Positions 3,260 to 22,545 of a DNA stretch of 64,000 nt are shown here, in pieces; positions within the stretch are counted from its first letter, which is position 1; every line of letters begins with the position of its first letter. The DNA lies in assembly GCA_037974965.1 (NCBI GenBank), contig JBBPFI010000005.1:62001-126000 (forward strand), read 5' to 3'. Under the pieces are notes generated by a model, which was not told the origin of the DNA, did not search any database, and saw only the letters and a program-made list of their open reading frames with translations. Source of the stretch: Dacryopinax spathularia (taxonomy: Eukaryota; Basidiomycota; Dacrymycetes; Dacrymycetales; Dacrymycetaceae). The translations under genes were made by a program, and so were the position numbers.

Positions 3260-4850
3260 TTAATCCAACTCCTCGAGGCTCTCCAGGTCTCTGCCATGGT
3301 GGTGCTGACCCTGATTCACCGTGCTCCCACTGTCCGTCTTCTCCCTCTGCAGCCGCATGTATGTCTGCTGAGCGCGAAGCCAGGCAGCCTGGGCAGCTTG
3401 GTCGTGCTTGAACGCCTCCGTATCCCGGTGAGCGTTCAGTCTCTCAAACTCGGCCCTGGCAGCTTGAAGGGCAGCCTCCTTCTGGCGAGTCCATGCCGTG
3501 CGACGGGTCTATTCATGTGCGCGCATTAGATGGGAGCATCAGGTTGACGGAGGACAACTCACAAGAGTGGACTCCTCATCATCATCGAAGTCAGATGAAC
3601 GGAGCATCATCGAGTCCATCTCCTCGAGATCCTCCATGTCTCGACCATGATGATGCTGACCCTGGTTCACTGTGCTCCCACTGTCCGTTTTCTCCCTCTG
3701 TAGCCGCATGTATGCCTGTTGGGCACGAAGCCAAGCAGCCTGAGCAGCTGGGTTGTGCTTAAAAGCTTCGGTATCCCGGTGCGCGTTCAGTCTCTCAAAC
3801 TCTGCCTTGGCAGCAAGCAAGGCAGCCTCCTTCTGGCGAGTCCATGTACGCCGAACCTGTTGCCGAGGTCAGGCGGGACCATCACGTACACATGAGGAGA
3901 ACTTACCAGAGCAGCATCATCGTCTTCAAAGTCGAAGTCGATTGACCGGAGCATGATCGTATCCAACTCCTCGAGAGCCTCCATGTCTCGGGCATGGTGG
4001 TGCTGACCCTGATTCACAGTGCTTCCACTGTCCGTTTTCTCCCTCTGTAGCCGCATGTATGCCTGTTGGGCCCGAAGCCAGGCAGCCTGGGCAGCTGGGT
4101 TGTGCTTGAATGCCTCGGTATCCCGGTGCGCATTCAGTCTCTCAAACTCTGCCTTAGCAGCAAGCAAGGCCGCCTCCTTCTGGCGCGTCCATGTGCGCCG
4201 GACCTGTTGCGGAGATCAGGCGGGAGCATCGGGTTGACGGAGGATAACTTACGAGAGTGGACTCCTCATCGTCATCGAAGTCGACCGATCGGAGCATGAG
4301 GGAATCCATCTCCTCGAAATCCTCCAGGTCACGGCCATGATGGTGCTGACCCTGGTTCACAGTGCTCCCGCTGTCCGTCTTCTCTCTCTGAAGCCGCAAG
4401 TAAGTCTGCTGCGCACGAAGCCAAGCAGCCTGGGCAGCTTGGTCATGCTTGAACGCCTCGGTATCCCGGTGCGCATTCAGTCTGCCAAATTCGGCTCTGG
4501 CAGCTTGGAGCGCAGCTTCCTTCTGGCGCGTCCAGGCCGTGCGGCGGGTCTGGAGTTCATATGCGTGCATTAGTTGGGATCCGGGAGTATCAGGTTTGGG
4601 TGTAGGGAAGAGGACTCACCAGAGCCCCTCCTTCCACATCGTCGTCGTCGAGGGCGAGGGAACGACGCATGTTTACTCGACTGCCGTTGGCCGTCTTGGC
4701 CGCTTGCAGGTGTTGGTATTCTTCCTGAGCTTTCTGCCATTCCTCTTTATCGAAACCGGGCCGGCCTCGGAGGGCGTTGAGACGCGCCCATTTCAGGCGT
4801 GCTTGCTTTAGTGCTTCTTCTTGGGAGCGCGTCCAGGCTGCTCTCCGGGC
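3260..4850 (-). repeat. Five tandem exon-intron units of gene A (~347 bp period)
   Basis: Repeat-exon starts on the minus strand are at 4850, 4549, 4203, 3856 and 3508; the last four are spaced 346-348 bases. The three internal units 3563-4549 are the most alike, including their 45-55 base introns, so the duplicated unit is exon plus intron. Confidence 0.9.
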
Positions 4851-5193
4851 CTGAATTGTGAGAGTTAGCAGCCACTCTACAGAGAGCAGGATGCACATAC
4901 CAGCGTCGCAAAGCCATCCTCAGCCTGGGGAAGATCACGGACATCGACTTCGGACTCCAATCCACGCGCAGCAAGCTGCAAGATAATCTGTGAGCACATA
5001 GTAGGAAAGCAGACTGGTAGATCGGTCGCCCACCTCAGACCTCGTCGAGTGGTGCGAAGTCGTAGGCGCAGCCAACGAAAGCGTCGAGAGAAGAAGAGCG
5101 AGCGAGAGGACGCTGGTGGCTACAATAGCCAAACAAATAACAAGTCAGAGATCCCATAACCAAACCGGCAGTTCCTGCGAGCTTACGCTGCAT
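3260..5193 (-). CDS. Gene A: secreted tandem-exon repeat protein, 511 aa, five repeats
   Basis: Exons (minus): 5187-5193, 5034-5119, 4901-4975, 4620-4850, 4253-4549, 3907-4203, 3563-3856, 3260-3508; all junctions fit and sum to 512 codons. The first coding piece is only ATGCAGC; after splicing the N terminus is MQPTSVLSLALLLSTLSLAA, a clear signal peptide. Each later exon is one repeat of 77-99 residues with phase-0 borders: R[RT]xxWTRxxEAAL, a helix, LNAxR, a short loop, AWLRAQQxYxxLQ, K-T-x-x-G-S-x-V-N, then an acidic tail (MLRSxDFDDDE). Two alpha helices per repeat are predicted by eye. The last repeat ends LEELD. An in-frame ATG 21 bases upstream could add seven residues, but the paralogs start at ATGCANC. 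Function unknown; no known family recognised. Possible extracellular or wall-associated protein, or precursor of peptides. Confidence 0.88.
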
Positions 5194-5436
5194 TTTTGTG
5201 AAGACTCGTTTCATAGGAAGGCTTGGGGGCTGAGTTGGGAAGTTGAAGTGAAGTGAATGAGCGACGAAGTTTGGTGTTAGAGTATGCTTCGACCGGCGAA
5301 GTTGAGGAGGCTGGTGAAGTCGCATCAGTCCCAGAACAGCGATAACAAGTGGGCAGAGGCTTACCGACCAGCGCAGAGTGGATTGGTGAGGTGAGGTGAT
5401 GATGAGCCAGAGAACGGTCCGCAGCCCACTTTTATA
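5194..5436 (-). promoter_or_regulatory. Gene A promoter and spliced 5' leader with conserved hairpin
   Basis: TATA box (TATAAA, minus strand) at 5431-5436. A noncoding first exon ends GCGCTGGTCG at 5365, followed by a 54-base intron (5311-5364, gtaagc...ccag). The second leader exon carries the inverted repeat CTTCGCCGGTCGAAG (5287-5301), a 5-bp stem with a 5-base loop. The same layout precedes genes B, C and D. Confidence 0.75.
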
Positions 5437-6968
5437 CCCAAGAGAGCGAGGGACATGATTATCCGGACATATGGCTTTCCATCAGGGTGGTATGATGTTG
5501 TCTTTCGCAGAACAATCAGGGATGATGCTCATTGCAGAGTCCAGACATCCGGGTTGATGTTCCATAGGAGCTTCGTTTTTGCGCGAGAGTTGTTATTGTC
5601 CATAGCTTCCTTTCTGGCCGACGTGGTCCGTTGGCAGTCCAGAACACAATGTTCGATTTCCAGAATAGGCAAGAGACCGTGCCGAATCCTTGTGGGCCAA
5701 GCGCATGGGTGTTTCATCGTGATCATTGATCATGCCCCAACCCAGCCTCGTCAACCGCCATGAGCAGATTGGTCAGAAACCTTACACAGCGGGTTAGCAG
5801 GTAAGCAGCACAATGAGTTTGGTAATCATCGCATTCGCGTGGAGTAACGTCCAAGCCTGAGTCCGTTTTGCGTGGGAAGAGGGGCAGATCAACGTTCAGA
5901 TGATCTAGGGTCACAACTATATCAGTGGCTGTGTCGATCATGCTGCTTTCTGATAATGACCATCGTGAAGAGTTGAAGATCTAGAGTCCGTGCACCCCCG
6001 TGCGATCGCGTTCTTATGGACTCGGACTCCATAGCAAGGTGGTTTCATATACTGTACATCATATGGGAGCTTGGCAGACATAGTGTTGCATTATGGCAGT
6101 TATAAGCCGCATTAAAAGTTAGCCTGTCGACTTTAAGTACTTATATACTAAGCTAATCATTAAGGTTTGAGCCATGTAAGTATGTTACTGTCATGCTTGT
6201 AGAATACCTCAACATATCCTTCAGACATGCAGTATCATTTCACACAATAATCAGCAGAAAGGGTGAGGCAAATATGTTTGAACTCAGCACGACTTGACTT
6301 AACATATAGCCCACAGGTCATTGCAGAACAGGTAGATTTGATATGTTGTACTGTATGCACATCCAATATGTTAATAACAGAGCAATTTTGGAGGGCTAAC
6401 TTTTATTAGCGACCATTTTGCCAATTTGATCTGCGAGGGAAGGTTTAAGCCCTTTTCCCACAGTTTAAGTATGCATTTTGCAATGCAATGTCAGATGCTC
6501 TCTGGAAGCAGTAATTTCCTCACTTCGGAAAAAGAGGAGAAGTAGAGTTAGAAGACATGCGACTTGCACGATTCATACATTCTGATACGTAGGGTACAAC
6601 ATGTATGAAGCCCGTGGTACTGGTCTCTGTGGCCCTTGCGGGTCCTTGGAAGGATGGTATAGCGTGTATACAGTAGGGCCTTCTATCCTTCTATCCTTCC
6701 CGATCTTAAAGCCTAAGTTTCCAGTCTGGTTGAGATGTTGCACCATCGCGGCGCGCGTGCCGGGGGAGATCGGCAGGCACTAAGATGCGAACCTCGATAT
6801 GAGGCCAACTTCGGAGCTCGATCGTACTCTGGATCGCGTAGCATAGAGTGCAGAATAGGATGTGTGAATGACGACTTGAAGGTGGTGCAGCTATATGCCA
6901 CTAGTACTCTGATTGTACTGTGAGCCCCAGCTTTGAGGAAACAGGGCATTGAAGGACGTACGTTGCGT
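5437..6968. other. Intergenic region, AT-rich from about 6000 to 6600
   Basis: Upstream flank of gene A and 3' flank of the small membrane-protein gene. The segment 6000-6600 is clearly richer in A/T than its surroundings and has no ORF above 60 codons. No terminal repeats or transposase traces were found. Confidence 0.45.
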
Positions 6969-7457
6969 TTAACCCTTCGTATCCGTCTCCGTATCCATAT
7001 CCGACAAGAACCAAACCAGCCTCGCGATCCCCCCTGCCCCGCCTCCAATAGCCAGGCCAGTCAGAGCCGCCACTCCAAAAAAGACATACAGCGGGTATAT
7101 GAGCGTCGCGAGCCCATACACGATACGAAGCGGAGCGAGCAGGACGTAGACGATGCACTGCAGCACCACTATAAGGGGATAAAGGATGCTATACACCACT
7201 CCCAGCAGATACGTGAATGGCAGAAAGGGGATATGGACATGCGGCCAAACGAGCCGCACAGGTTGCGCAACGAGGTGAAATACGCCGGAGAGAGTGCCAC
7301 TGATGTTGCGTCCTGAGCCTAGGGCGGTGAGGTCGTCCCGCACTTCTCGGGCGGCGTCGGGTATGCTGTACAGCAGGTAGGAGCCGACTCCGATGGCGAG
7401 GATGACTGATGCGCCTACGGCGGCTTCTTCGATACGGGTCGCGATTGTCGTGGTCAT
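6969..7457 (-). CDS. Small multi-spanning membrane protein, 162 aa
   Basis: Single exon; ATG at 7455-7457 gives MTTTIATRIEEAAVGASVIL. The frame stays open further upstream, but this ATG begins the hydrophobic, protein-like part, and the longer reading would run into the kinesin gene. Hydrophobic segments lie at about residues 14-31, 77-96, 98-118 and 122-145, giving three or four membrane spans; the loop between the first two contains PDAAREVRDDL. The C terminus is a short acidic hydrophilic tail (SDMDTETDTKG). I do not recognise the family. It is divergent from the kinesin gene and shares its promoter region. Confidence 0.7.
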   Translation of the reverse strand: MTTTIATRIEEAAVGASVILAIGVGSYLLYSIPDAAREVRDDLTALGSGRNISGTLSGVFHLVAQPVRLVWPHVHIPFLPFTYLLGVVYSILYPLIVVLQCIVYVLLAPLRIVYGLATLIYPLYVFFGVAALTGLAIGGGAGGIARLVWFLSDMDTETDTKG

Positions 7458-7752
7458 TGTCGCCTTTGTCGTCGCCGTGATAGAATGCGCATATAGGCCG
7501 CGGTGCCCCAATGCCGATCTTGACCAGTGGACGATGACGAGATGCCCGCAAGCAGTAGGTGAGGTCATGTGCGCATCACGTGCCCTATTATCGTAACGCG
7601 TCTCTCCCCAATTTGTACCCGCTGTCATCGCGCGCCGCATTCCTCGTCCCATCGTTCGGTCGGAGAGTTGGCGTAATCCGCTGCTTCTGCGATACCTTTC
7701 CCCACATTCCATTCCTCGTTCCTTGCCACCGACAACTGACAACTGGGCAGGG
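7458..7752. promoter_or_regulatory. Bidirectional promoter region, membrane protein / kinesin
   Basis: 295 bases between two divergent start codons (7457 minus, 7753 plus). No TATA box is evident. Confidence 0.5.
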
Positions 7753-10700
7753 ATGGCAACCCGACCTCGATCGACTTCGCAGAATAGGACTGCTGAGCCT
7801 GCCAGGCCCAAATCATCTCTCCGGCCAAGACCACCGCCTTTCGTCCCTTCTTCGTCCCAGTCCAAAGATCCATCCACAACATCAACCAACAAAGCCCAAC
7901 AACCAACAGCGATGCGCTCCCAAACCCCCGTCGACAGGCCAACATCACCAACGAAGATCACAGCCCCTATCACAGCGGGCGTCAAGCCCTCCGCTAAGAA
8001 GAACCCCACCTTCCACTTCCGCCGCGCTCTCGCACCTCAAACACCTCAAGTCTCTCGGCCTGGCACACCGAGCTCTCCAACGCGGCACGATTCCCCAGCT
8101 GCAGCAGCAGCACTTCTCTTCACCCCTGAACAGCTGGCCACAGTCACATCGCACGACGTGGACGTCTCGGCCGACCTGGAGGACTGCCCGATGCTGGAGA
8201 GCGAGGATAAGGTGCTGGTCTCTGTACGGGTGAGGCCGAATAAGGTGGGGGAGGGGGAGGAGATGGCTTGGAAGGTCGATGTGAAGGAGGATACTATTCA
8301 GTTGAGGGAACAGTATGCAAGGGCTGGGGGGGCGGGGACGGGGCAGCATCGGTTTGGTGCGCCGGGAATCACCATTGCCTACTGTTTTCTTCTAACCAAC
8401 AACGTCAGATAACGTCTTGACCGGCTCGGACAACAAATCGGTATACACGGCGACAGCCAAGGCGCATGTTCGGTAAGTCAACTACTTCTACCCATCTATC
8501 GCTTTCTGACCAAGCTTCAGCGCTGCAATGGAAGGCTTCAACTCTGTCATCTTCGCTTACGGTGCGTGCCTCCTCCAACCTTCAACTTGCCCAATTGCTC
8601 ATATTACGTAACAGGACAAACGGCTTCTGGGAAGACGTTCACCCTGGTGCGAAAATCATGTCCCTGCCTCCTGCTCGCTAATAATGCGTTTTGCAGACCG
8701 GCGACGAAGACGAGCCCGGCATCATCCCCCGCGCAATGAAAGACGTCTTCTCCTACATCCGCAAAGTACCTCTCCTCATCAACTCCCCCCTATCTCCTCA
8801 TACTCACCCCTCCCCCCCCCACAGCACCCCAACCGCGAATTCCTCCTCCGCGCCTCCTACCTCGAAATATACAACGAAACGATCCACGACCTCCTTTCCC
8901 CCTCCCCCCTCCCCGCGCCCGTCCAGCTCAAAGGCACGACCCTAGTCCCGCTGAGGGAAGAGGTGTTCACTTCCCCCCAGGGCGTACGGGAGATTTTGGA
9001 GCGTGGGGAAGGGAATAGGAGGACGGCGAGTACGGATTGGAATGAGCGGAGTTCGAGGAGTCATAGTATTTTCAGGCTTGTGAGCTCCTTCCATTCTCTG
9101 TATTCTACCAGTGCTAAGAAGCTGGCTGGCTGGTAGGTGATCGAGTCACGCGAATTGGCCGACGTGGCAACTCCGAATCCGGGTATGCCACCAGCCACAC
9201 CTGGGGGAAGCAGGCTCTACCGAGATGGCGGCAAGCCTGTGCAGATGAGCGTTCTCGTAAGCCCTCCCTTCTCTTCGTTCCCCTCGCTCCCTTCCCTTCT
9301 CTGCCCTTCCCATTTCATTCACGCGGTGCGGCTCGAGACTAACGGGAGGGGCAGAATCTGATCGATCTGGCCGGGAGCGAGAAAGCGACGAGCGATAAAG
9401 AGCGGACGAGGGAGGGGAGGTACATTAATACCAGGTTTGTCTGCTTTTGTTGTTCGTTAGGAGGGGAAAGGCGCTGATGGGGATGGCGGTTGTAGTCTGT
9501 TGACGCTGGGTCATGTTATCCAGATCTTGGGGGAGAATGCGGCGAAGGGCAAGAGGTACGCGCTTCAGACACCCAGCAAAGTGCTCGATACTGATTGGAG
9601 CGCTCAGCGACCACGTACCTTACCGAAGCTCCAAGCTGTAAGCCCCCCTCCCTATCTCCCTCCGGCATCTCTCTCCCTGTGCCTGTAATGCACCGCTAAT
9701 CCACCCCACCAGAACACACATGCTCCAACCCTGCCTCTCCGGCGACGCCCGCATCTCCGTAATATGCACCATCAACGCCTCCCCCAGCGCAATAACCGAA
9801 ACCCAATCCACGCTCGGGTTCGCCTCCCGCATAAAAAAGGTGCAACTGAACGCGGAGAAAAAGGAGCTGATCGATACGGAGGCTTTGATCGAGGTACCCC
9901 ACGCCCAACCGCTTCTACTATGTAGGACAGCAAGGTGCTGACGTATTGCAACTAGCGATACAAAACCGAGATTCGCGCTCTGAAGAAACAGCTCGAAGAA
10001 CGTGAGCGGGAAGCACCAGCCCGACATCGGCGTCTCAGCTTGCGAGAGGTACGCACGCCCTCATCCCCATCCTTCCGGCGTAGAGAGTCTGACGTTGTTG
10101 GGACGTACGGTAGCAAAAAGACGACTCGAAGACGATGACGGATATTAGCAAGCGGATCAATCAGCTCAAGGGACTGATATTGACGAGCGATACGGTGGAT
10201 GATCAGGCTGGCGGTGTACGTTCCCGTTCTTCCTACTCTCCCTTCTCTCTCTTCTCTTTTCTTCGCTTCGCTTTTCGTCGGTTGCTGATGCAAGGGACAG
10301 GCCCGACCAGTCAGCCCATCCAAAGTTGACTTCGATCTTACTCCCCATCAAGTACGTACTTTCATAGGCTACAGTAGAAAGCTAAAGCTGATCTTCGGGC
10401 AGTTAAGAGAAGAACTCTTCCAAGCGAAACGGAAGATCGAGCTCCAGAACGTGCAGATCCTGTCGCTCGAAACAGCGCTCGAACAGCGTCCGCTCATAGG
10501 GGCCGACGCGCCCGATTCGGACAAGGACAGGCTTATTGCCGAGCTCCAAGAGCAGGTTAGGGAGCTGTCGCTGGCTGCGCAGGGCGGTCGTCCCAGCACG
10601 GAAGAGGCGGAAGATGTGTTCACAGCTACGAAGGAGGAGGAATGGGAGGCACGGATCAAGGCTATGGAGGTCCTGGTGGCGGAGAAGGAGGCGTATGCCG

Positions 10701-11184
10701 CGGAATGTGCGAAGGCGTTGGAGATCGAAAAACAGGCAGGTCGCCCACTGCCACCGTCTTACATTATGCTGACCGCAGCTCACAGGCTCGCACCCGGCTG
10801 GAAGAGGCCAACAAAGCGATGCACGCCTTTGTGCGGGACATCGACCTCTACATCACGGGGAAGAACACCGAGTCGCGTATCGCCAAACCTCGTCTCTCCG
10901 GGGTCGGCGCCCTCCAGCCGCTAGACACCAACAAGTCCCTCCCCTCGCGCCGCTCCTCCACCTCCACGGACCAAGAAGGGGAGAAGGAGAAGAAGCCCTC
11001 GGCGGCCGCGACGGCGATCTTTAAGCATATCCGTGGTCAGCCGAGCTTGCTGGAGCAGATGCCGGAGGAGCTGGAGATGCTTATGAATCAGGAGGATGAT
11101 TTTGATGTCGTGCTGGACGCGAAACAGGGTTTGAATGATGGCAAGTCGGAGATGGAGGATAAGGAAAATCTCGTTGTTGCTTGA
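7753..11184 (+). CDS. Kinesin motor protein, kinesin-7/CENP-E-like, 837 aa
   Basis: Sixteen exons: 7753-8356, 8409-8472, 8521-8561, 8615-8646, 8697-8765, 8825-9079, 9137-9256, 9355-9434, 9496-9555, 9608-9637, 9713-9893, 9956-10048, 10114-10215, 10301-10351, 10403-10735, 10786-11184; frame holds throughout. A Ser/Pro-rich N extension precedes an N-terminal motor (about 165-515): P-loop GQTASGKT (237-244), switch I NERSSRSH (343-350), switch II DLAGSE (399-404) and DHVPYRSSKLTHML spread over the 30-base exon. The SYLEIYNE motif and motor-first layout fit kinesin-7. Coiled-coil stretches follow (KTEIRALKKQLEER; a long Glu/Lys-rich segment). The intron 10736-10785 would start with GC. Role by family: plus-end microtubule motor in spindle or vesicle transport. 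Confidence 0.93.
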
Positions 11185-11392
11185 ACTCGCTTTTGTTCTG
11201 CGTGTACTTGTAGGTCGGTCTCATATCCACGCTTTTTCCATCTGTCGCGCTGGTTTTTGACGGCGCAGCCTGGACAGCAGGAGACGTGGACTAGACTTCC
11301 ATGCCAGCGAACACGGCCTGACTTGCCTTCGCAATGATTTCGAGCATAACAGCTGCAATTGACGAATCTGCTACGCAAGGCTATGGGACTAC

Positions 11393-12789
11393 CTAATCCA
11401 GCGCATCCAGGCCTTCAGAGTCTTCAAACCACGAGCGTGCATCCTACGAGGAGATTCAGCATTGTAGCCTAGGAAGCTAGCCAGCCGACTCACCAGAGCG
11501 AAGTCGTCATCGTCGAACTCGAGAGACCGCTTGCGACCCCTCTTGCGCTCTTCCGCGGTCTTTTTGGCCTGAAGACTTGTGTACTTTTGCTGCGCTTCGC
11601 GGTACCGGTGTTCATCAAAGCCTGCTTTACCGCGCAGGGCAGCCTCTTTGCCGTATGCCTTCTTGGCGGCCTCAAGGTCTTTCTCTTGTGTGCGCCTCCA
11701 CGCACGCGCAGACTATCGAAACTTCAGTTGGGAGAAGAAAGAGTGTGTATGATTGGTGCTTACCAAGGGGCCGTCTTCGTCGTCAAGGTCCAAAGATCGT
11801 TTGCGACCCCTCTTGTGCTCCTCCGCCGTCTTCTTGGCTTGAAGGCTCTGATACTTTTCTTGGGCTTCTCGGTAACGTCGCGCGTCAAAGCCCGCTTTGC
11901 CGCGTAGGGCAGCCTCCTTGCCGTAGGCCTTCTGCGCGGCCTCAAGCTCCTTCTGCTGCGCGCGAGTCCAAGCACGGGCAGACTAGCGAAACTTGAGCTG
12001 GGAGAAGGGAAGAGGGGGTGTTATTGCACTTACCAAGGGGACGTCTTCGTCGTCAAAGTCTAGAGATCGTCTGCGACTCCTCTTGCTCTCTTCGGCCGTC
12101 TTTTTGGCTTGAAGAGCTGTATATCTGCTTTGCGCTTCGCGATACCGTCGCTCATCAAAGCCTGCCTTCCCGCGCAGGGCAGCCTCTTTGCCGTATGCCT
12201 TCTTGGCGGCCTCAAGGTCTTTCTCTTGTGTGCGCGTCCACGCGCGGGCAGACTAAGGAGACGTGACTTGAAGGAAGGGAAGAGGGTGTGTTAACTCCGC
12301 TTACCAAGAGGACGTCTTCGTCGTCAAAGTCTAGAGATCGTCGGCGACTCCTCTTGCGCTCTTCGGCCGTCTTTTTGGTTTGAAGAGCTGTGTATCTGCT
12401 TTGCGCTTCGCGATACCGTCGCTCATCAAAGCCTGCTTTCCCGCGCAGGGCAGCCTCTTTGCCGTAGGCCTTCTGGGCGGCCTCAAGGTCTTTCTGTTGT
12501 GTGCGCGTCCACGCGCGGGCAGACTAAGCGCTCTCAATATTGGTCGAGCGTGAAAGGTTTCGACCTCAGTACTTACCAGAGAGAACTCATCATCCTAAGG
12601 AAGTCACACTGTCAGAGAAATATACCGAGACGCGCTGCATGCTCACCTGTGCTCTTGCGTACAGACCGTCCGGGGTAGGCGCTGCCTGGGAAAGACCGGA
12701 GACTGCAAGGAGCAGGGAAATGACGAGGATTGCTAGGAGGTAGACATTAGGACTTGTTCCCGAGTAGCGCCGTTCTACCCACGGTGCAT
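11393..12789 (-). CDS. Gene B: secreted tandem-exon repeat protein, 345 aa, four repeats
   Basis: Exons (minus): 12783-12789, 12647-12732, 12577-12594, 12305-12523, 12034-12252, 11764-11982, 11494-11712, 11393-11443. ATGCACC joins to give MHPILVISLLLAVSGLSQAA, a signal peptide. The third coding exon is only 18 bases (DDEFSL), matching just the tail of a repeat. Four 73-residue repeats follow, each exactly 219 bases: SARAWTRTQQKDLEAAQKAY, a Gly-Lys-rich loop, RRYREAQxxYxxLQxKKTAEE and an Arg-rich stretch ending RSLDFDDEDVLL. A separate final exon codes DARSWFEDSEGLDALD. B is the most diverged paralog, more basic than A, C and D, and has no His-rich linker. Function unknown. Confidence 0.88.
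11494..12523 (-). repeat. Four near-identical exon-intron units in gene B (270-271 bp period)
   Basis: Exon starts at 12523, 12252, 11982 and 11712 (spacing 271, 270, 270). Exons differ by few bases, and the ~50-base introns also align (TTCCCTTC tract, then a ...TAG acceptor). This indicates recent unequal crossing-over or gene conversion. Confidence 0.92.
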
Positions 12790-13085
12790 GGCGAAAGATA
12801 GGGTGCAGAATGAGTGTTATGCTCGAATAGTAAGATCCAAATGAGTGCTCTATCACAGTGGTTAGAGTGAGTAAAGTGAGAAGTTGGGCCTTACCTTTCA
12901 AAGATGGGTGGATTTGGGACGGGATACAGGCTTCGACCAGCGAAGTTGAGGGCTGGAGACTGGGTTAGCAGATGGTTTTTCTTTCTCAGAGGTAGGAAGA
13001 CGGTGACTTGCCGACCAGCACGGCTGTTGAAGAAAAGTGGTTGTGGTGAGGTTTGGTTCAGGCATGCACGTCCTTCCCTTTTATA
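12790..13085 (-). promoter_or_regulatory. Gene B promoter and spliced 5' leader with conserved hairpin
   Basis: TATAAAA (minus) at 13079-13085; leader exon ends GTGCTGGTCG and is followed by an intron that appears to start with GC (gcaagt) and ends ctccag; hairpin CTTCGCTGGTCGAAG at 12931-12945. A second leader intron (gtaagg...gatag, about 12840-12896) is likely before the ATG. Confidence 0.7.
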
Positions 13086-14060
13086 CCCAAATTCATTTCA
13101 CAGAACCAGCGTGAAGCGACACAGCTGTAGGCCATCGTCCATCCCGAAACTTGTCCCTCCGATAGATGTCCCTCCGAAACTAACGGAGCACGGCGACAAC
13201 AATAGCACGAGCGATGGGAAGTGTACCACCCGGGCGGAGTAAAACAGATGCTTTGTCCTCCGAGCATCGTTCCGGATTAGATGGGCTGTATGGGCCTCCT
13301 TTATGAGGTGTTGACACTCCCCTTCTGGAGAAACAGCTTTGTGGTGAACCGCGTGGGCGTCCTGCCGAGCGCGATCGGCCATTCGGCAGCCTCATTATCG
13401 TCTGTCTTTGAAACATTCTGTTGCAAGCCTTATCTGTCAGTCCTCATTCTCGTCTATGGACACCGCGTGCGACGATGATGGTGCGAACTGTTCGGAGCTA
13501 TCAGCGGCCGGCAGCTGATGGACAGACCTTTGTCACTGAGGAGAAAGCATCGAGAGACAGCATCCACCCCGAAAACGCGTGTGCACTTACGTGCTTCCCA
13601 TCATTACAAAAATATAAACCAATCTCTCCAGAGATGTTGAGAGCAGTATTCTGATGTCTCCATTGATTCTTCAGTGGTCATAGATGAAGGGCAGGGCGGG
13701 CGATGCAATTACGTCACATCCCTCCGCAAAACTCGTGTCAGCTTCGCACTCCTTCTGATAGCATCGTTGAGCCCAGATAACGCGGCATGAGCACAGGTCG
13801 TCCCTCTCAGCACTTCAGCCTTTATAGACATGGAATTTATGGGCGCATGGGTGCATTACCATTGTTTACTTACGAGGTCATCCTTCCGAGGCACCTTCTG
13901 GCGACGGCCCATACTGTAGCATCGGTTGACAATAGGCTTCGTCGGTGCTGTGCAGCAGTAAGGCCGCTTACGCTGAAGAAATGTTTCCCCAGTCATTATC
14001 GTGGAACCCACTATAATGTGCCAAATTGCTGCCTATGATACAATACTAAATCGCACGGCT
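13086..14060. other. Intergenic region between genes B and C
   Basis: Upstream flank of B and 3' flank of C. A short direct repeat GTCCCTCCGA occurs twice near 13155-13180. No gene seen. Confidence 0.5.
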
Positions 14061-15169
14061 CTAATCCATCTCTTCCAGATTTTCCATCCCGCGGCCATGG
14101 TGGCCCCGGTTCTGGTTCACAGTACTCCCGTTGTCCGTCTTCTCCCTCTGAAGCTGGTTGTATGCTTGCTGGGCGCGACGCCAGGCAGCCTCATCGAAGC
14201 CTTGGTGGCCTCTCAGGGCATTCTGTCTCTCATACTCGGCCCTTGCCGCCTGCAAGGCAGCTTCCTTCTGGCGAGTCCATGCGGTGCGGCGGATCTATTC
14301 ACATCTGCACATTAGGTGGGAGCATAGGATTTAGGGGAGGTCACTTACGAGAGTGCTCTCTCCATCGTCATCAAAGTCGATGGAACGCGTATTAACTCGA
14401 CTGCCATTAGCAGTCTTGGCAGCTTGCAAGCGGTTGTACTCCTGCTGAGCGCGAAGCCATGCTGCTTGGTCGAAACCTGGTTGTCCCCGCAAAGCGTTCA
14501 AGCGACCATATTCAGCGCGTGCTCGCTGCAGAGCCGCCTCTTGGGATCGTGTCCAGGCTGCTCGAAGCGTCTAGAGGCTCCCATTAGGAGGAAGCAACAC
14601 ATCCACGGAGGACAACTTACGAGAACAGTGTCCTCTTCGTCATTGACGTCCACAGACCGCATGTTCACCCTGCTCCCATTAGCAGTCTTAGCGGCCTGCA
14701 ATCGGTTGTACTCTTGCTGAGCATGGAGCCATGCTTGTTGATTAAAACCAGGCTGCCCGCGCAAAGCGTTGAGACGAGCATACTCAGCTCGTGCCCGCTG
14801 CAGCGCTGCCTCCTGGGAGCGCGTCCAGGCTGCTCGCGATGTCTAGAATTGTTCGCTCAGCAGCAAGTCTACAAGGAGCAGCGTGTACTTACCAACGTGG
14901 CATAGCCATCCTCATCTTGGGGTAGATCACGGGTGTTGAGTTCTGAATCGGTTCTCCGCGAAACAAGCTGAACGGTGTTACGTGAGTAAACCGGAAAGGA
15001 GATCCGTAGGCATGATTGCTCACCTCCGAGGTCGTATCCTGGGAGTACGGTGTAGGAGCAGCCAGAGAAAGCGTGGAGAGCAGAAGAGCCAGAGAGAAGA
15101 AGCTGACGGCTGGTCGTACAGGTTAAGAGAGACAAGAGTGCGCCCGATTATTGCACACTTACGCTGCAT
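14061..15169 (-). CDS. Gene C: secreted tandem-exon repeat protein, 281 aa, three repeats
   Basis: Exons (minus): 15163-15169, 15024-15109, 14893-14967, 14621-14842, 14349-14570, 14061-14294; 282 codons with stop. N terminus MQPVSFFSLALLLSTLSLAA is a signal peptide nearly identical to gene A. The 25-codon third exon (ending RDLPQDEDGYATL) matches its counterpart in A. Two 74-residue repeats carry LNALRGQPGF, AWLxAQQEYNRLQAAKTANG and an acidic tail; the last repeat is of the A type (REKTDNGSTVNQ, Gly/His linker) and ends MENLEEMD. C therefore holds both repeat subtypes and may be closest to the ancestral layout. Function unknown. Confidence 0.88.
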
Positions 15170-15454
15170 GGTGAATTAAGTAGTATAAAGGGCTTGTGGA
15201 GGACTGGTTTGGTGGAAGAGCGAAAAGATCGTGTTCCTACGATCCGGTCAGATGAAGACAGCACATGAGGTTAGAAACCTACCGAAGAAGGCGCGTGGAG
15301 TGTCTACTTCGACCTGCGAAGTATTCTGGAGCTAGCAGAGCCCGGTCGGATCAGCGCAGTAACAGGGAGAGCGCAGCGCGCGCTTACCGACCGGCGCAGA
15401 GTAGGGTGGAGAGGCGATGGAAGTTCACATCCACTGAGTCGGGCCTCCTTTATA
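15170..15454 (-). promoter_or_regulatory. Gene C promoter and spliced 5' leader with conserved hairpin
   Basis: TATAAA (minus) at 15449-15454; leader exon ends GCGCCGGTCG before a gtaagc donor; acceptor ctccag; hairpin CTTCGCAGGTCGAAG at 15307-15321. The loop base differs from A, B and D while both stem arms are kept. Confidence 0.72.
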
Positions 15455-16410
15455 CCAGAACGGGACACTCATGGTATACGGGAAGATGCTTTGAGCATCA
15501 CCAAGGTAGGCTCTGCAGAAGGAGCAGGGGTGATGCCAGGGCGCAAGAGATTCCACAGAAAATAGCCAAGCAATTGCGTTACGAGCATGGGCCGCACGGC
15601 TGACCACCGCCGCACGTTTCGGACGGCATATCTATGGCCCCAGGAGATTCCGAACCAGTGTTGAAATTTCCCGATATGGCAAGAGATATTCCGTGATCCG
15701 TTGTCAGCAGTGTATGCGGAGGTGTTTCAAGATGTTCTGACACCGCCTCTCCATGTCAAGTGCCATGAGGGTATTAGGAAAGACCCTGTCGTCGCAAGTC
15801 AGCAGGTCAGCAGCCTGGTCGTGTGGACCGCCATCGAGACTTCGATTTCATGTAAGAAGGTCACAGCTTATGTGATGGAGTATCACTATAGTATGGTCAC
15901 TTCATCGATGGCTGCGCGTGACGAGGCTGTGACTTACTTGACTTTGTCATCTGCTGCCCGTGGGAACGTTTCTGCAACAGCCTCCTGAAATGGCAATCCG
16001 AGGCACTATGAATCGCGCTGCTAGGTAGCGTCGGAGGAGCGGCAGTCATAGAAAATGGGCATCTCAATGGAACAGCCCAACCGCAGATCAAGAAGCGGAG
16101 TGCTCGGGCAAAAAGGTGACGGCGACTTATCATTGGACTGAATGGAGGCATCCAGATCGGTGGCTGTGTTTTAAGGGACTGCTTCCGGAAGTGGCAGGGA
16201 GCGTGCCTGAAGGAACTCTTCAACCTGAAGACATGCCCCATGCTCGGACCCACTTCTCATGCCGCATTTGGGTCAGGTTGTAAAGGACAGGCAGGGATGT
16301 TCACTGAGGCTGTATCCTTCGCTACGAAGAAGAAAGCCTCATCGGGCAATTCAGATTGACCAGCACACTCATACATTCATCACCGAACCTAATGAGACGG
16401 GATATGACGT
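15455..16410. other. Intergenic region between genes C and D
   Basis: Upstream flank of C and 3' flank of D. Only short ORFs with no family features. Confidence 0.5.
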
Positions 16411-17825
16411 CTAATCCAGGTCTTCTAAACTCGGCAGGGCTCGAGTCTTCTTGTTCACCTGGCTACCGTTCGCGGTCTTCGCAGCCTGCAGGCGATTGTA
16501 GTTCTGCTGTGCCTGTTGCCACGCCGCCTGGTTGAACTGGGGTGTACCCCGCTGGGCGTTAAGCTGAGCATACTGCCGTTGCGCAGCCTGCAATTGTGCC
16601 TCCTTAGACTTGGTCCACGGAGAGCGGGGCGCCTATGGGAGAAGAAGTATCTCAGTACCAGATCGTCCAGGAGCAGGTGTACGCAACACTCACCAGACCG
16701 TACTCGTCATCGTCGAAGTCGAGGGAGCGTCGGTGATTTACCTTACTACCGTTCGCGGTCTTTGCAGCCTGGAGGCGATTGTAGTTCTGCTGCGCCTGTT
16801 GCCACGCTGCTTGGTTGAACTGGGGTGTACCCCGCTGGGCATTCAGCTGAGCATACAGCTTTTGCGCGGCCTGCAATTGTGCCTCCTTGGACTTGGTCCA
16901 CGGCGAGCGCGGCGCCTAAAGTATCTTAGTGTCAGATCGTTCAAGGATAGATGTACACCATACTCACCAGATCATACTCATCGTCATCAAAGTCAATCGA
17001 TCGATGATGATGGTTCTGGTTCTGGTTCACCGTACTGCCGTTGTCCGTCTTTTGCCGCTGGAGGTTGTTGTAGTTCTGCTGTGCTTGCTGCCATGCCGCC
17101 TGGTTGAATTGGGGCGTCCCTCGCTGCGCGTTCAACCGTTCGTATTCCTCTTTCGCTGCTTGTAGTGCCGCCTCACGAGACTTCGTCCAGGGCGAACGAG
17201 GAGCCTGAGCACGCACAACACTGTGAGCGAACGAAGCACGTAGACACCTGCGCGCAAAAGACTAACCACAGCGAAATCGTCGTCGTCGAAGTCGAGAGAC
17301 CGATGCCGATTACCACCGTTTCCGTTCCCATTCTGGTTGACCCTGTTGCCGTTGTCCGTCTTCTGTCTCTGGAGGTTGTTGTAGTTCTGTTGAGCCTGCT
17401 GCCAAGCTGCTTGGTTGAATTGGGGAGTTCCTCGCTGCGCGTTCAAGCGATTGTATTCCCTTTGTGCTGCCTGCAGTGCTGCCTCCCGAGACTTGGTCCA
17501 GGGCGAACGAGGAGCCTAAGCACGCATAATAATGTGAGCGACAGATGCCATGAATGACTGTGCGCAAAAGCCTGACCACAGCGTAATCGTCGTCATCGAA
17601 GTCGAGCGAACGGTGTCGGTTGCCACCGCTTCCGCCCCCATTTTGGTTCACCCTGCTGCCGTTATCCGTCTTCTCCCTCTGAAGGTTGTTGTAGTTCTGC
17701 TGCGCCTGCTGCCACGCCGCCTGGTTGAATTGGGGTGTTCCTCGCTGCGCGTTCAGACGATTGTACTCCTGTTGCGCAGCCTGCAATGCGGCCTCCTTTG
17801 ACTTGGTCCAAGGCGTGCGAGGCGA
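16411..17825 (-). repeat. Five tandem exon-intron units in gene D (283-311 bp period)
   Basis: Exon starts at 17825, 17515, 17204, 16915 and 16632. Length differences come from the linker just before the acidic tail and from the introns. Confidence 0.9.
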
Positions 17826-18141
17826 CTGAGCGAAACAACCGCATTAGCAAGAGGGGAATCCGGGAAGTGGGTATCCATACCAGGTATTCGTCATCTACAA
17901 AGTCGCGAGCAGGGTGTTGGCGACGGCCATAATCACGAGCAGCAATCTGAAAGCCGATAAGCAGCATAATCTGGGATGCGGCGCTCTAGCACTTACATCA
18001 GATCCAGCGCCTGAGGAGTAGCGAGTGGGGGCAGCCAAGGAGAGAGTGGAAAGAGCCAGAGTGAGGGAAAGGACGTTCTTGGCTGATGGTGCACTGTTAG
18101 AATACATGGTTCACCATAGTTATTTCATACGTACGATGCAT
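16411..18141 (-). CDS. Gene D: secreted tandem-exon repeat protein, 445 aa, five repeats
   Basis: Exons (minus): 18135-18141, 17997-18082, 17881-17946, 17577-17825, 17267-17515, 16968-17204, 16694-16915, 16411-16632. ATGCATC joins to give MHPKNVLSLTLALSTLSLAA. Five repeats of 73-83 residues share [SA]PR[ST]PWTKS, LNAQRGTPQFNQAAWQQAQQ, NYN[NR]LQ and an acidic RSLDFDDDEY tail; linkers vary (Asn/Gly-rich, His-rich, none). The block LNAQRGTPQFNQAAWQQAQQ is identical in all five repeats, although synonymous sites differ, which suggests purifying selection as well as conversion. Donors of the first two repeat introns are weak (gtcagg, gttagt). The protein ends SLEDLD. Function unknown. Confidence 0.88.
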
Positions 18142-18440
18142 GGCGAGGAGGACCGGTGATGAGATGTGTAGATGTGTGCGGGAGTCTTGTGGGTGGGTCG
18201 ATGAAAGAGTGCAATTGGTTGATCTACAACGTCACCGTAAGAGATTAGACCGAGAAAGAGGGCATAGATCTCACTAGGAAAGGGTGGGTAGAGCTTTCTT
18301 CGACCAGCGAAGTTAGGACAGCTGTGGAGATGTTAGCTCACCAGTCAGGCGGAGAGGAGTTTAAGCAGGCGCTCACCGACCGGCGCGTTGTAGGAAGAGG
18401 ATGATGAAAGTGGAAAGTCCACATCATGCGGCTTTTTATA
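18142..18440 (-). promoter_or_regulatory. Gene D promoter and spliced 5' leader with conserved hairpin
   Basis: TATAAA (minus) at 18435-18440; leader exon ends GCGCCGGTCG before gtgagc; acceptor ccacag; hairpin CTTCGCTGGTCGAAG at 18298-18312. Confidence 0.72.
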
Positions 18441-20272: not shown

Positions 20273-21764
20273 CTAGGTCGAGGGAGGTAACGGGGTAACG
20301 GGACTGCTCGTCACATTCTTCGGCGTTGTCGAGTTGAAGGGCGTGTTGTAAGGGTTGTTAGGGTCGAACGGAATGCTCGTATTGGCAGGCGGCGCGGTAG
20401 TGTTGAACGGCTGGCAGGTGCCGAACGGAGGGCAAGGACCAGTCGAAGGTGCGGTGGTGTTGACCGGCGCCGTGGTATTAAGGGGAGGAGACGTGAAATT
20501 GCCAGGAGCCGAAGGAATCGTCGTGTTAGATCCGGGAATGGCAGCGTCCACGGGAGGGAATGGAGTGACAGGACTGCTCGTCACGTTCTTTGGAGTCGTG
20601 GAGTTGAAGGGCGTGTTGTAAGGGTTGTTGGGATCGAAGGGAATGCTCGTATTGGCAGGCGGCGCGGTAGTGTTGAAAGGCTGGCAAGTACCGAAGGGAG
20701 GACAAGGACCAGCCGAAGGCGCGGTCGTATTGGCCGGTGCCGTCGTATTAAGAGGAGGGGACGTGAAATTGCCGGGAGCGGACGGGATCGTCGTATTAGA
20801 GCCAGGGATGGCTGCATCAACCGGTGGGAACGGTACAACAGGGCTACTCGTGATGTTCTTGGGGGTGGTCGAGTTGAACGGCGTGTTGTAGGGGTTGCTC
20901 ACGTTGAACGGGATGCTCGTATTGGCCGGCGGAGCGTTGGGGTTGAACGGGATGCAAGAACCGTACGGAGGGCAAGAGCCAGAGGCTGGCACCGAAGTGT
21001 TGACAGGAGGGACTGGCAGATGCGTAGACGTGGTGTTAGTCGCGATGGACGTGTTCGAGCCTGGGATAGCGGCATCGATATGCGTCGTCTTGTTGGCTGC
21101 CTGACTCAACGGCGCAACCATAGCGCCGGTGGGATAACACTTCTTGTACGTCTTGTCGCTGCAACAGTTCGGGTACCGGTACTGAACCGTACCGGAGGTG
21201 ACATTCCCGCTGCACGTGCTGGTCAGTACTGCGTAAAGCCGGCAGGCACAAGGACGCACCATCTGAATGTGGAGCCAGGTGACACGCAAGAGTTAACATT
21301 GGTAGGGTCACAGCAAGCCTCAACAGCAAACCCAGAGACGGGGCATGTGTACGTATTGGCCGTGATCGCGTAGCCAGAGCCGGTAGACGACTGACATTCG
21401 GCCAACTGGGTGTCCGGGCTACAAACCATCAATCAGGACGAGTCAATCGCAGTCTTCTTCAAGACATACCAGACGAATGGGCTGGGCGCCAAAGTGCACC
21501 CCGCGCTTGGGATGCAACAGTACGCCTTCGCGTTGAAGACACCGACACCGGCGCAAGTGTAGACTGTTCCAGAAGGTGCTTGAGGACGCTTCGCCCTTCG
21601 AAGGACTAGCGCAATCGGCCGTAAATCAGCCAGTCACAAGTTAGGGAGTCAAAGAACTTACTTCTCGCAGGAGCCCGTTCTACATTTGCACCGGCCGTAT
21701 CGACCGCGATAGCTTGAGCCAACGCGAGGATGCTGCACAGCAGCGTGAGAGAAAGAGCGCGCAT
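20273..21764 (-). CDS. Gene E: secreted cysteine-rich protein with Asn/Thr/Pro-rich repeat tail, 447 aa
   Basis: Exons (minus): 21662-21764, 21470-21605, 21260-21418, 20273-21218; 448 codons with stop. Signal peptide MRALSLTLLCSILALAQA. The N-terminal half holds three cysteine modules of the form C..CC..C..(F-x-C): YTCAGVGVFNAKAYCC, then TYTCPVSGFAVEACCDP, then YRYPNCCSDKTYKKC. The introns between modules split a Cys codon as TG|C. The C-terminal ~310 residues are repeats rich in N-x-T/S sequons and Pro (CQPFNTTAPPANTSIPFDPN; NPYNTPFNSTTPKNVTSSPV), likely heavily glycosylated. No hydrophobic GPI tail is seen. Related to genes G and H, which lack the tail. Likely wall or matrix protein; function unknown. 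Confidence 0.85.
20276..21085 (-). repeat. Three 270-bp in-frame tandem repeats in the tail of gene E
   Basis: Matching blocks begin at about 20355, 20625 and 20895, exactly 270 bases (90 codons) apart. The two copies nearest the stop codon are almost identical; the third is more diverged. Confidence 0.88.
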
Positions 21765-22545
21765 TTCAGGAGGACGGAGATGGAACGGCTGGGCAGCAGG
21801 GAGAGCCGTGCATCTCCCGCTTGGAGGCCAAGCGGCTCTTAACCAGGGCGAAATCCCAGACGAGCGTGGTTCTCCAACATCATACCAGCCCACGGTCTCC
21901 AGAAGCCAGAATTTTGTCGTAATTTACAACTTGACCGAACATAGACAGCTCTAATCCATTGACCGAGAAGGTCGCCACAAGAGAGCCACAGCAGAAAGAA
22001 GACGTGTGGTGCTGCCGTAACGTCTTTGAGAAGGAGGCTTGCTGGTTGACATCTCCAGTTCAGCATAAGCTTCTGGAACAGCGGTCCAGCTGCAGAAGCA
22101 CTAATATTTCTCCAGCCAGAAATATTGAGGTTAAGCAGGAAGGACTAGGTAGCCGACGCGTCGAAGTCGCCTTACGTACACGCGTCACGAGCGCTTATCC
22201 TCGGCAGCACGGAAGCGAAGCAAAGAGACGGAACACAGCGAAAGGTCGACCATCCGATGGGAGGCGATATTCAGCGCTTCATGTCATTGACAGCCCCTCG
22301 TTCCAATGTACGGAAGAAAACACTTGTGATGGCATAATGCGGGTGGCTCGTGCGAAGTAAGAGGGACAGAATTGCTAGGACCCGGCGGGCTCCAGCCAAA
22401 TGGAATTATCAGACACTCAAGCAGCAAAACCAAACGGTATCTACATCGCCTGCGCACAGGCTACATTTACATCGACAAACAAGAGAATATGAGAGTATGA
22501 GGGTATCCAATCAACAGAATATGCACAAAATGGGAACAATCAATC
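21765..22545. other. Intergenic region upstream of gene E, with a perfect hairpin
   Basis: No gene seen. A perfect 9-bp inverted repeat, AATATTTCT (22103-22111) and AGAAATATT (22118-22126), with a 6-base loop lies in the middle. Confidence 0.5.

Follow-up and report, generated by a model that had tools for sequence, protein, structure and literature searches.

A telomere-proximal family of exon-modular repeat proteins in Dacryopinax spathularia, with an extended Kex2 motif at the repeat junctions

The window analyzed here, 64,000 nucleotides of contig JBBPFI010000005.1 of Dacryopinax spathularia (C5:62001-126000; assembly of 29,246,034 bases in 24 contigs), carries on its minus strand four genes, A to D, for secreted-looking proteins built from tandem repeats, with one exon for each repeat. 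Predicted, splice-consistent models (coding sequence [CDS] from 3260 to 18141, zero internal stops) yield proteins of 511, 345, 281, and 445 amino acids (aa), exactly the lengths given in a preliminary description of the stretch, and its count of 5, 4, 3, and 5 repeat exons of 73-99 codons (219-297 nt), phase 0 at both ends, is borne out by the exon models. Each repeat exon is flanked by AG and GT and stays in frame, and together with the ATG, signal, and pro exons these exons form a single open frame per gene. The splice donors of gene D read GTCAGG after exon D1 and GTTAGT after exon D2. The family genes are rich in introns, which are short (49-70 bases between repeat units). The signal peptide, acidic tail, and terminal LExLD of the same description were likewise recovered, as signal-peptide-like N-termini (by inspection; starts such as MHPVNVLSLALALSAVSLAAPT), acidic tails, and a terminal L[ED]x[LM]D, which in gene B lies on a separate tail exon (11393-11443). 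Judging by these N-termini, the members would be secreted, exon-modular repeat proteins. Two more members, E and F, bring the family to six genes and 26 repeat exons, all 12-81 kb from the telomere on C5; the contig opens with CCCTAA repeats, and its end is therefore taken to be the telomere. Searched against the whole genome, one repeat of gene C gave 26 matches at E <=0.001, the query itself counted, a repeat of gene D gave 26, and one of gene B gave 22, with A2-A5 not among them (the latter two with E values up to 10); every match falls on C5, within 13.2-79.9 kb. No seventh member was found in the 29.2-Mb assembly by these searches, which score only the best candidates, so that a very divergent copy could escape. 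The likeness of the units exceeds what chance would give: unit C1 matched C2 at E 1.2e-34 and A1 at E 1.6e-24, and tandem-array detection found A, B, and D (periods of 347, 270, and 310 bases, 82-83% matches), with gene C not listed. This is a real family and, as far as Pfam, PDB, and literature searches go, one without a name. The preliminary description did not contain the junction site or the leader element discussed below, nor the telomere and genes E and F, which lie outside the window.

Thirteen alignment columns are invariant across all 26 units, including W6, A17, R28, F33, Q42, Y45, K52, and T53, and there is no Cys in any of the six proteins. Structure prediction of a single repeat, a check proposed in the preliminary description, gave a helical hairpin for both units modeled. 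The AlphaFold2 model of unit C2, built from the 26-row alignment, has two helices (residues 8-26 and 35-56), with block means of the predicted local distance difference test (pLDDT) of 92-93 over residues 11-50 and values below 50 from residue 60. The divergent unit B2 takes a similar shape at pLDDT 80-83, with a longer second helix (34-64) and values below 50 from residue 64 and in the first three exon residues. These models cover single units and not exon junctions, and the units are predicted to be helical hairpins with a low-confidence acidic tail; over the 26 units, charge runs from 0 to +6 in the hairpins and from -3 to -11 in the tails. The earlier remark that no named family with this repeat was known held up in Pfam: the 26 units amount to 25 distinct proteins, F2 being identical to E2, and not one of them reached the gathering cut-off of any family. 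The nearest entry was LPD7 with unit D1, at 24.8 bits against a cut-off of 27, and LPD7 matched 12 of the 26 units at E <=1. NCBIfam was weaker, with 17 families reaching E <=1 when all 26 units were searched and 0.0031 as the lowest E value, and a sequence search of the PDB returned none for one unit and, with a profile, four weak matches (best E 0.18). Foldseek against the PDB with unit C2 returned 282 matches, of which not one reached E <=0.001; AcrA ranked first with E 0.45, and the top of that list consists mostly of efflux adaptors. Two ideas were discarded: bacterial or archaeal relatives, none of which was confirmed among 19 pattern matches, and strongly amphipathic, membrane-active helices, for which the lowest shuffle fraction was 0.10 (12 of the 26 units). 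Two unit types occur across A, C, and D in differing orders, KTANGS...VN (A1, C1, C2, D4, D5) and KTD[NS]G...VNQ (A2-A5, C3, D1-D3). Ahead of their acidic tails, units A2-A4 (3563-4549) each hold a copy of the terminal motif (RDLEDFEEMD and similar), which looks like an inward duplication of the last exon.

The last residue of one exon and the first three of the next read [L/V]-x-x-R before every one of the 26 hairpins. This corresponds to the extended Kex2 motif, given as an aliphatic P4, Arg at P1, a variable P2, and Asp disfavored at P3 (PMC8528282). Arg at P1, the third residue of the exon, is present at all 26 sites, and P4 is Leu in 24 and Val in 2; P3 varies among A, S, T, V, and I and is never Asp, while the residues at P2 are A, R, P, S, and L, so that all 26 units combine an aliphatic P4, Arg at P1, and a P3 other than Asp. 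The entropy of P1 is 0.00 bits and that of P4 0.39 bits, compared with 1.14-2.94 bits for the ten remaining positions between P12 and P2; all but one of the 26 twelve-residue junction stretches (25) are distinct. Because the Leu codons at P4 vary (CTG 7, TTG 6, CTT 6, CTC 5), this Leu is not a mere splice-site letter. In the six mature proteins, [LIV]xxR with Asp barred at P3 occurs at 41 sites, 40 of them in linkers, where 2000 within-stretch shuffles averaged 10.6 and never exceeded 23, and one in a hairpin, where they averaged 11.4 with a minimum of 2. The dibasic pairs KR and RR follow the same partition, with 29 in linkers against 15.2 in shuffles and 5 in hairpins against 21.6. Moreover, in the 11 units where two residues separate the Arg from the invariant Trp, those residues are X-A or X-P in all 11 cases, the trimming signature of Ste13 after a kexin cut (PMC6339444); in the remaining 15 units, the gap is a single residue. 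The single P-domain match in the genome lies in the same open frame as an S8 protease domain, which marks a kexin-like gene.

From these observations we favor, with a probability a little under 0.6, the reading that the six paralogs encode secreted polyprotein precursors that kexin cuts at [L/V]-x-x-R into single hairpins. Each precursor would consist of a signal peptide, a short pro-region, and 3-6 Cys-free helical hairpins about 50 residues long. A flexible linker and an acidic spacer would come after each hairpin, with hairpin, linker, and spacer making up one phase-0 exon. Kexin would cut after the junction Arg in the late secretory pathway, liberating one hairpin per exon, perhaps to be trimmed further, and the products would be soluble extracellular mini-proteins that may serve in signaling or in interaction with other organisms. 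Since half of the site sits at either end of the exon, duplication or skipping of an exon keeps both the frame and the cleavage sites, and hence a change in gene length would alter the dose or mixture of units without breaking the product.

Several points weigh against this reading. The P2 residue is Ala, Ser, or Leu at 15 of the 26 sites, neither Lys nor one of the five alternatives ranked in PMC8528282, and cutting may thus be partial or absent. The unit copies are related and the shuffles treat them as independent, so that the significance of the linker and hairpin counts is overstated; conservation of P4 and P1 may also stem from common ancestry or serve folding. In the C2 model, the xxR side of the junction shows no clear disorder, residues 1-10 having a mean pLDDT of 72. 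KR or RR pairs lie inside five hairpins (B1-B4 and C3), which means that a kexin cutting every dibasic pair would split all four hairpins of gene B; this tells against indiscriminate dibasic cutting in that gene. Such pairs are also missing from three of the four internal linkers of gene D and one of the two of gene C. The Ste13 signature is absent from 15 of the 26 units, and the DPPIV match in the genome is partial and does not establish Ste13. Finally, the helices are hydrophilic and their amphipathicity is not beyond that of shuffles (same 12 units as above), and hence they offer no clue to an activity.

The divergence of the units bears on how the arrays arose. Within genes, mean differences per site are 0.42-0.86 for synonymous (dS) and 0.09-0.20 for non-synonymous (dN) sites. 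Among 20 pairs of neighboring units, 19 have dS of at least 0.48 (three saturated) with low dN, the exception being B1/B2 at 0.08; the high dS and low dN suggest that most units are old and have been kept alike at the protein level, as under purifying selection. The preliminary description held that units are homogenized within genes. That part stands for B1/B2 and for the non-neighboring pair E1/E4 (dS 0.10), both clearly recent; as a general rule, recent homogenization is rejected in view of the 19 neighboring pairs, and in a tree of the units, in which 12 of 22 inner branches are open, C3 groups with A2-A5 (85/98) and not with C1 and C2, B stands apart (100/100), and E and F are intermixed. 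E4 (L010:4106-4339) is a near copy of E1 (L010:3216-3449), which is not its neighbor, and this suggests block duplication or conversion spanning several units. Genes E and F are sisters, with dS of about 0.3 for two unit pairs (E1/F1 0.30; E2/F2 0.28 with dN 0) and 0.76 for the last pair (E6/F3); as E now has six units against three in F, and the E1/E4 pair is of more recent date, the number of units does change. Intron identity within genes ranges from 31% to 80% against shuffled controls with a mean of 31% and a maximum of 46%, and thus some pairs are clearly related and others not above chance; the tandem arrays of A, B, and D indicate that exon and intron were duplicated together at least in part. 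The earlier picture of the locus as a machine for making length-variable secreted proteins is kept as to the varying number of units, six in E and three in F. Its "length-variable protein" may instead be a variable number of released units, since [LV]xxR at every junction points to cleavage into single hairpins.

A possible account, though one to which we give a minority share of belief, is that the proteins stay whole. They would then be beads-on-a-string proteins, extracellular or wall-associated, in which basic hairpins and acidic linkers provide multivalent self-association or binding, and only the N-terminal pro-region would be removed. The opposite charges of hairpins and tails fit this account, as does the likeness of units within a gene at the protein level despite far-diverged synonymous sites, which is expected if the units must match one another; the 15 sites with P2 outside the preferred set point the same way, and cutting at KR and RR alone would leave a multi-unit fragment of 321 aa in gene D. 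However, intact proteins leave unexplained why [LV]xxR precedes every one of the 26 hairpins yet hardly occurs within them, and why KR and RR are concentrated in the linkers.

That the family consists of ordinary KEX2-processed repeat proteins (KEPs), cut at KR and RR as in published surveys, is improbable in our estimate. The survey rule calls for a signal peptide in a protein that is not membrane-bound and for at least 4 fragments between KR or RR (or KK) sites, at least 3 of them similar (PMC6339444). Applied here by counting fragments at KR/RR alone and judging similarity by eye, the fragment part of the rule passes A, B, and E, is borderline for F, and fails for C and D, and so does not hold across the family. 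In its favor, the dibasic pairs are enriched in linkers, cuts at KR and RR give at least 3 unit-sized fragments in A and E, and B yields repeated fragments of 47, 47, and 51 aa and of 22, 22, and 22 aa. Yet in B these cuts also fall inside hairpins, C (fragments of 17, 171, 37, 37) and D (21, 321, 84) fail the rule, and the position of KR/RR varies by gene: in A the pair precedes the Trp, whereas in B, E, and F it precedes the acidic tail. KEPs are otherwise among the nearest known systems: they too are fungal and have at least 3 similar units between kexin-type sites, they carry a signal peptide where the present family has signal-peptide-like starts, and in part they show the X-A/X-P trimming signature (PMC6339444, PMC9769878), and KEP-derived peptides with Ste13-like trimming have been reported from mushrooms (PMC9769878). 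KEP units range from 3 to 352 aa, with 9-24 aa the commonest class in most Dikarya (PMC6339444), whereas the present family has [LV]xxR at the exon junctions, units of 73-99 aa that are predicted hairpins, and one exon per unit. Neither "exon" nor "LxxR" appears as a word in the main texts of PMC7329392 and PMC9769878. It is highly improbable that the genes encode dikaritin-type precursors of ribosomally synthesized and post-translationally modified peptides, with the repeats as cores for modification, since UstYa-like genes are present in the genome but their five matches all lie on contigs C6 and C2 and none on C5, 20 open frames scanned on C5:1-92000 gave no UstYa or tyrosinase match at E 0.01, and the units are long predicted helices rather than short cores.

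Cleavage into single hairpins, if correct, has consequences beyond this genome. A survey based on KR/RR would partly miss such kexin-processed repeat proteins, the products would be folded mini-proteins rather than short peptides, and exon edges would coincide with cut sites. A search rule follows, namely, an aliphatic residue closing one exon and x-x-Arg opening the next, by which more such precursors might be found. Among literature titles and the openings of abstracts, no repeat precursor with LxxR or with one exon per repeat was recognized as the family described here. Plant alpha-hairpinins are released from multi-unit precursors, and schistosome micro-exon genes make secreted proteins from many frame-preserving exons. 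The former resemble the present units in being small helix-loop-helix peptides and differ in a fixed four-Cys motif (PMC7191063, PMC11591084), where the six proteins here have no Cys; the exons of the latter differ in that ours are repeats of 219-297 nt and not micro-exons (PMC4350168) and have no known splicing variants. Kex2-processed pro-domain (K2PP) effectors share an extended LxxR ahead of a folded domain (PMC8528282). However, they have one pro-domain and one mature protein, whereas the family here repeats the motif before every unit, and we claim no virulence role for it. Rep1 of Ustilago maydis is, according to the same paper, a secreted repeat precursor cut by Kex2, as proposed here, but its products are short amyloid-forming peptides, unlike the predicted hydrophilic helical hairpins of this family.

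The six genes also share a leader element, CTTCGCNGGTCGAAG, of which there are six exact copies in the genome, one in the leader of each family gene. Allowing one mismatch adds 15 copies (37 matches for the reversed control pattern). The core TTCGCNGGTCGAA has eight genome copies, six of them in the family (control 5), and GCNGGTCGGTNAGC has 12, with 5 in the family (control 8). When the regions from TATAAA to ATG are aligned, invariant runs of at least 6 columns occur at TATAAA itself, at the donor (GGTCGG), and in either half of the element, and nowhere else. The element starts 4-9 bases past the last AG, the likely acceptor of an intron in the 5′ untranslated region (UTR); in gene C, a slightly earlier TAG may be the acceptor instead. 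The presumed donor lies 57-66 bases upstream of the element. Each leader holds two copies of GCNGGTCG, one at the donor of the UTR intron and the other within the palindromic element, with cores 69-78 bases apart; the donor of gene B is GGCAAG, and this gene carries GCTGGTCGGCAAG in place of the donor motif. The conservation of the shared element suggests that it probably co-regulates the six genes, and being unique to the family, it offers a concrete handle on gene switching. Two further candidates were set aside: a leader hairpin acting as a stable RNA structure (by itself it folds at -2.6 kcal/mol, and five of the six spliced leaders fold without it) and a shared motif in the 3′ flanks, where no 8-mer occurs in at least 4 of the 6 flanks of 250 bases. 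Joining leader and junctions into one scheme is speculative and, taken as a whole, rather unlikely: each exon would be a cassette for one released helical mini-protein, duplication, loss, or skipping of exons would change the secreted mixture harmlessly, and the family-only leader, with GCNGGTCG twice around the UTR intron, would switch all six telomere-proximal genes together.

Table 1. Positions of the family genes and their leader features (window positions; C5 marks contig positions)
Feature	Position	Strand	Basis or remark
Gene A CDS, 511 aa, 5 units	3260..5193	-	introns GT-AG, repeat exons in phase 0, single open CDS; C-terminus LEELD
Gene A exons	5187-5193 (ATGCAGC), 5034-5119 (signal), 4901-4975 (pro), 4620-4850, 4253-4549, 3907-4203, 3563-3856, 3260-3508	-	
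Gene B CDS, 345 aa, 4 units	11393..12789	-	most divergent member; ends LDALD
Gene B exons	12783-12789, 12647-12732, 12577-12594, 12305-12523, 12034-12252, 11764-11982, 11494-11712, tail exon 11393-11443	-	
Gene C CDS, 281 aa, 3 units	14061..15169	-	ends LEEMD
Gene C exons	15163-15169, 15024-15109, 14893-14967, 14621-14842, 14349-14570, 14061-14294	-	
Gene D CDS, 445 aa, 5 units	16411..18141	-	ends LEDLD
Gene D exons	18135-18141, 17997-18082, 17881-17946, 17577-17825, 17267-17515, 16968-17204, 16694-16915, 16411-16632	-	
Gene E, 535 aa, 6 units	C5:12884-14916		outside window
Gene F, 296 aa, 3 units	C5:24215-25375		outside window
Leader element CTTCGCNGGTCGAAG, gene A, presumed 5′ UTR just past presumed UTR intron	5287..5301 (C5:67287-67301)	-	exact match, alignment
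Leader element CTTCGCNGGTCGAAG, gene B	12931..12945 (C5:74931-74945)	-	exact match, alignment
Leader element CTTCGCNGGTCGAAG, gene C	15307..15321 (C5:77307-77321)	-	exact match, alignment
Leader element CTTCGCNGGTCGAAG, gene D	18298..18312 (C5:80298-80312)	-	exact match, alignment
Gene A, presumed UTR exon 1 (its end, GCYGGTCG) and presumed UTR intron 1 donor	5359..5372 (C5:67359-67372)	-	
Gene C, same donor motif GCYGGTCG	15382..15395 (C5:77382-77395)	-	
Gene D, same donor motif GCYGGTCG	18371..18384 (C5:80371-80384)	-	

Other genes are interspersed with the family. Between A and B lies a kinesin gene. Its first exon had no match at E 0.01; of three later ones, with E values of 5.9e-8, 5.6e-4, and 0.083, the first alone was over the cut-off. 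To the left, Pfam identifies a Kelch protein, a pyridoxamine-oxidase-like protein, a Sel1 protein, and a NIF-type phosphatase. Five of the 20 open frames scanned on C5:1-92000 (19 picked of 184, plus one more) match Pfam at E <=0.01, among them one assigned to the pyridoxamine-phosphate-oxidase family and one at the contig end far below its cut-off. The latter (L009:2-586) is an open frame over telomere repeats with a low-complexity PARP match of 25.3 bits against 100, and is taken as spurious. Adjoining gene D, on the minus strand at 20276-21800, is a gene for a secreted-looking Cys-rich protein with Pro/Thr/Asn-rich repeats; it contains a 270-base tandem array of 2.6 copies (20282-20976), and its scanned pieces were without a Pfam match. 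Elsewhere in the genome, four UstYa-like matches fall within 18 kb (G000:C6:1456385-1473948), which suggests a dikaritin-type cluster unrelated to the hairpin-repeat family.

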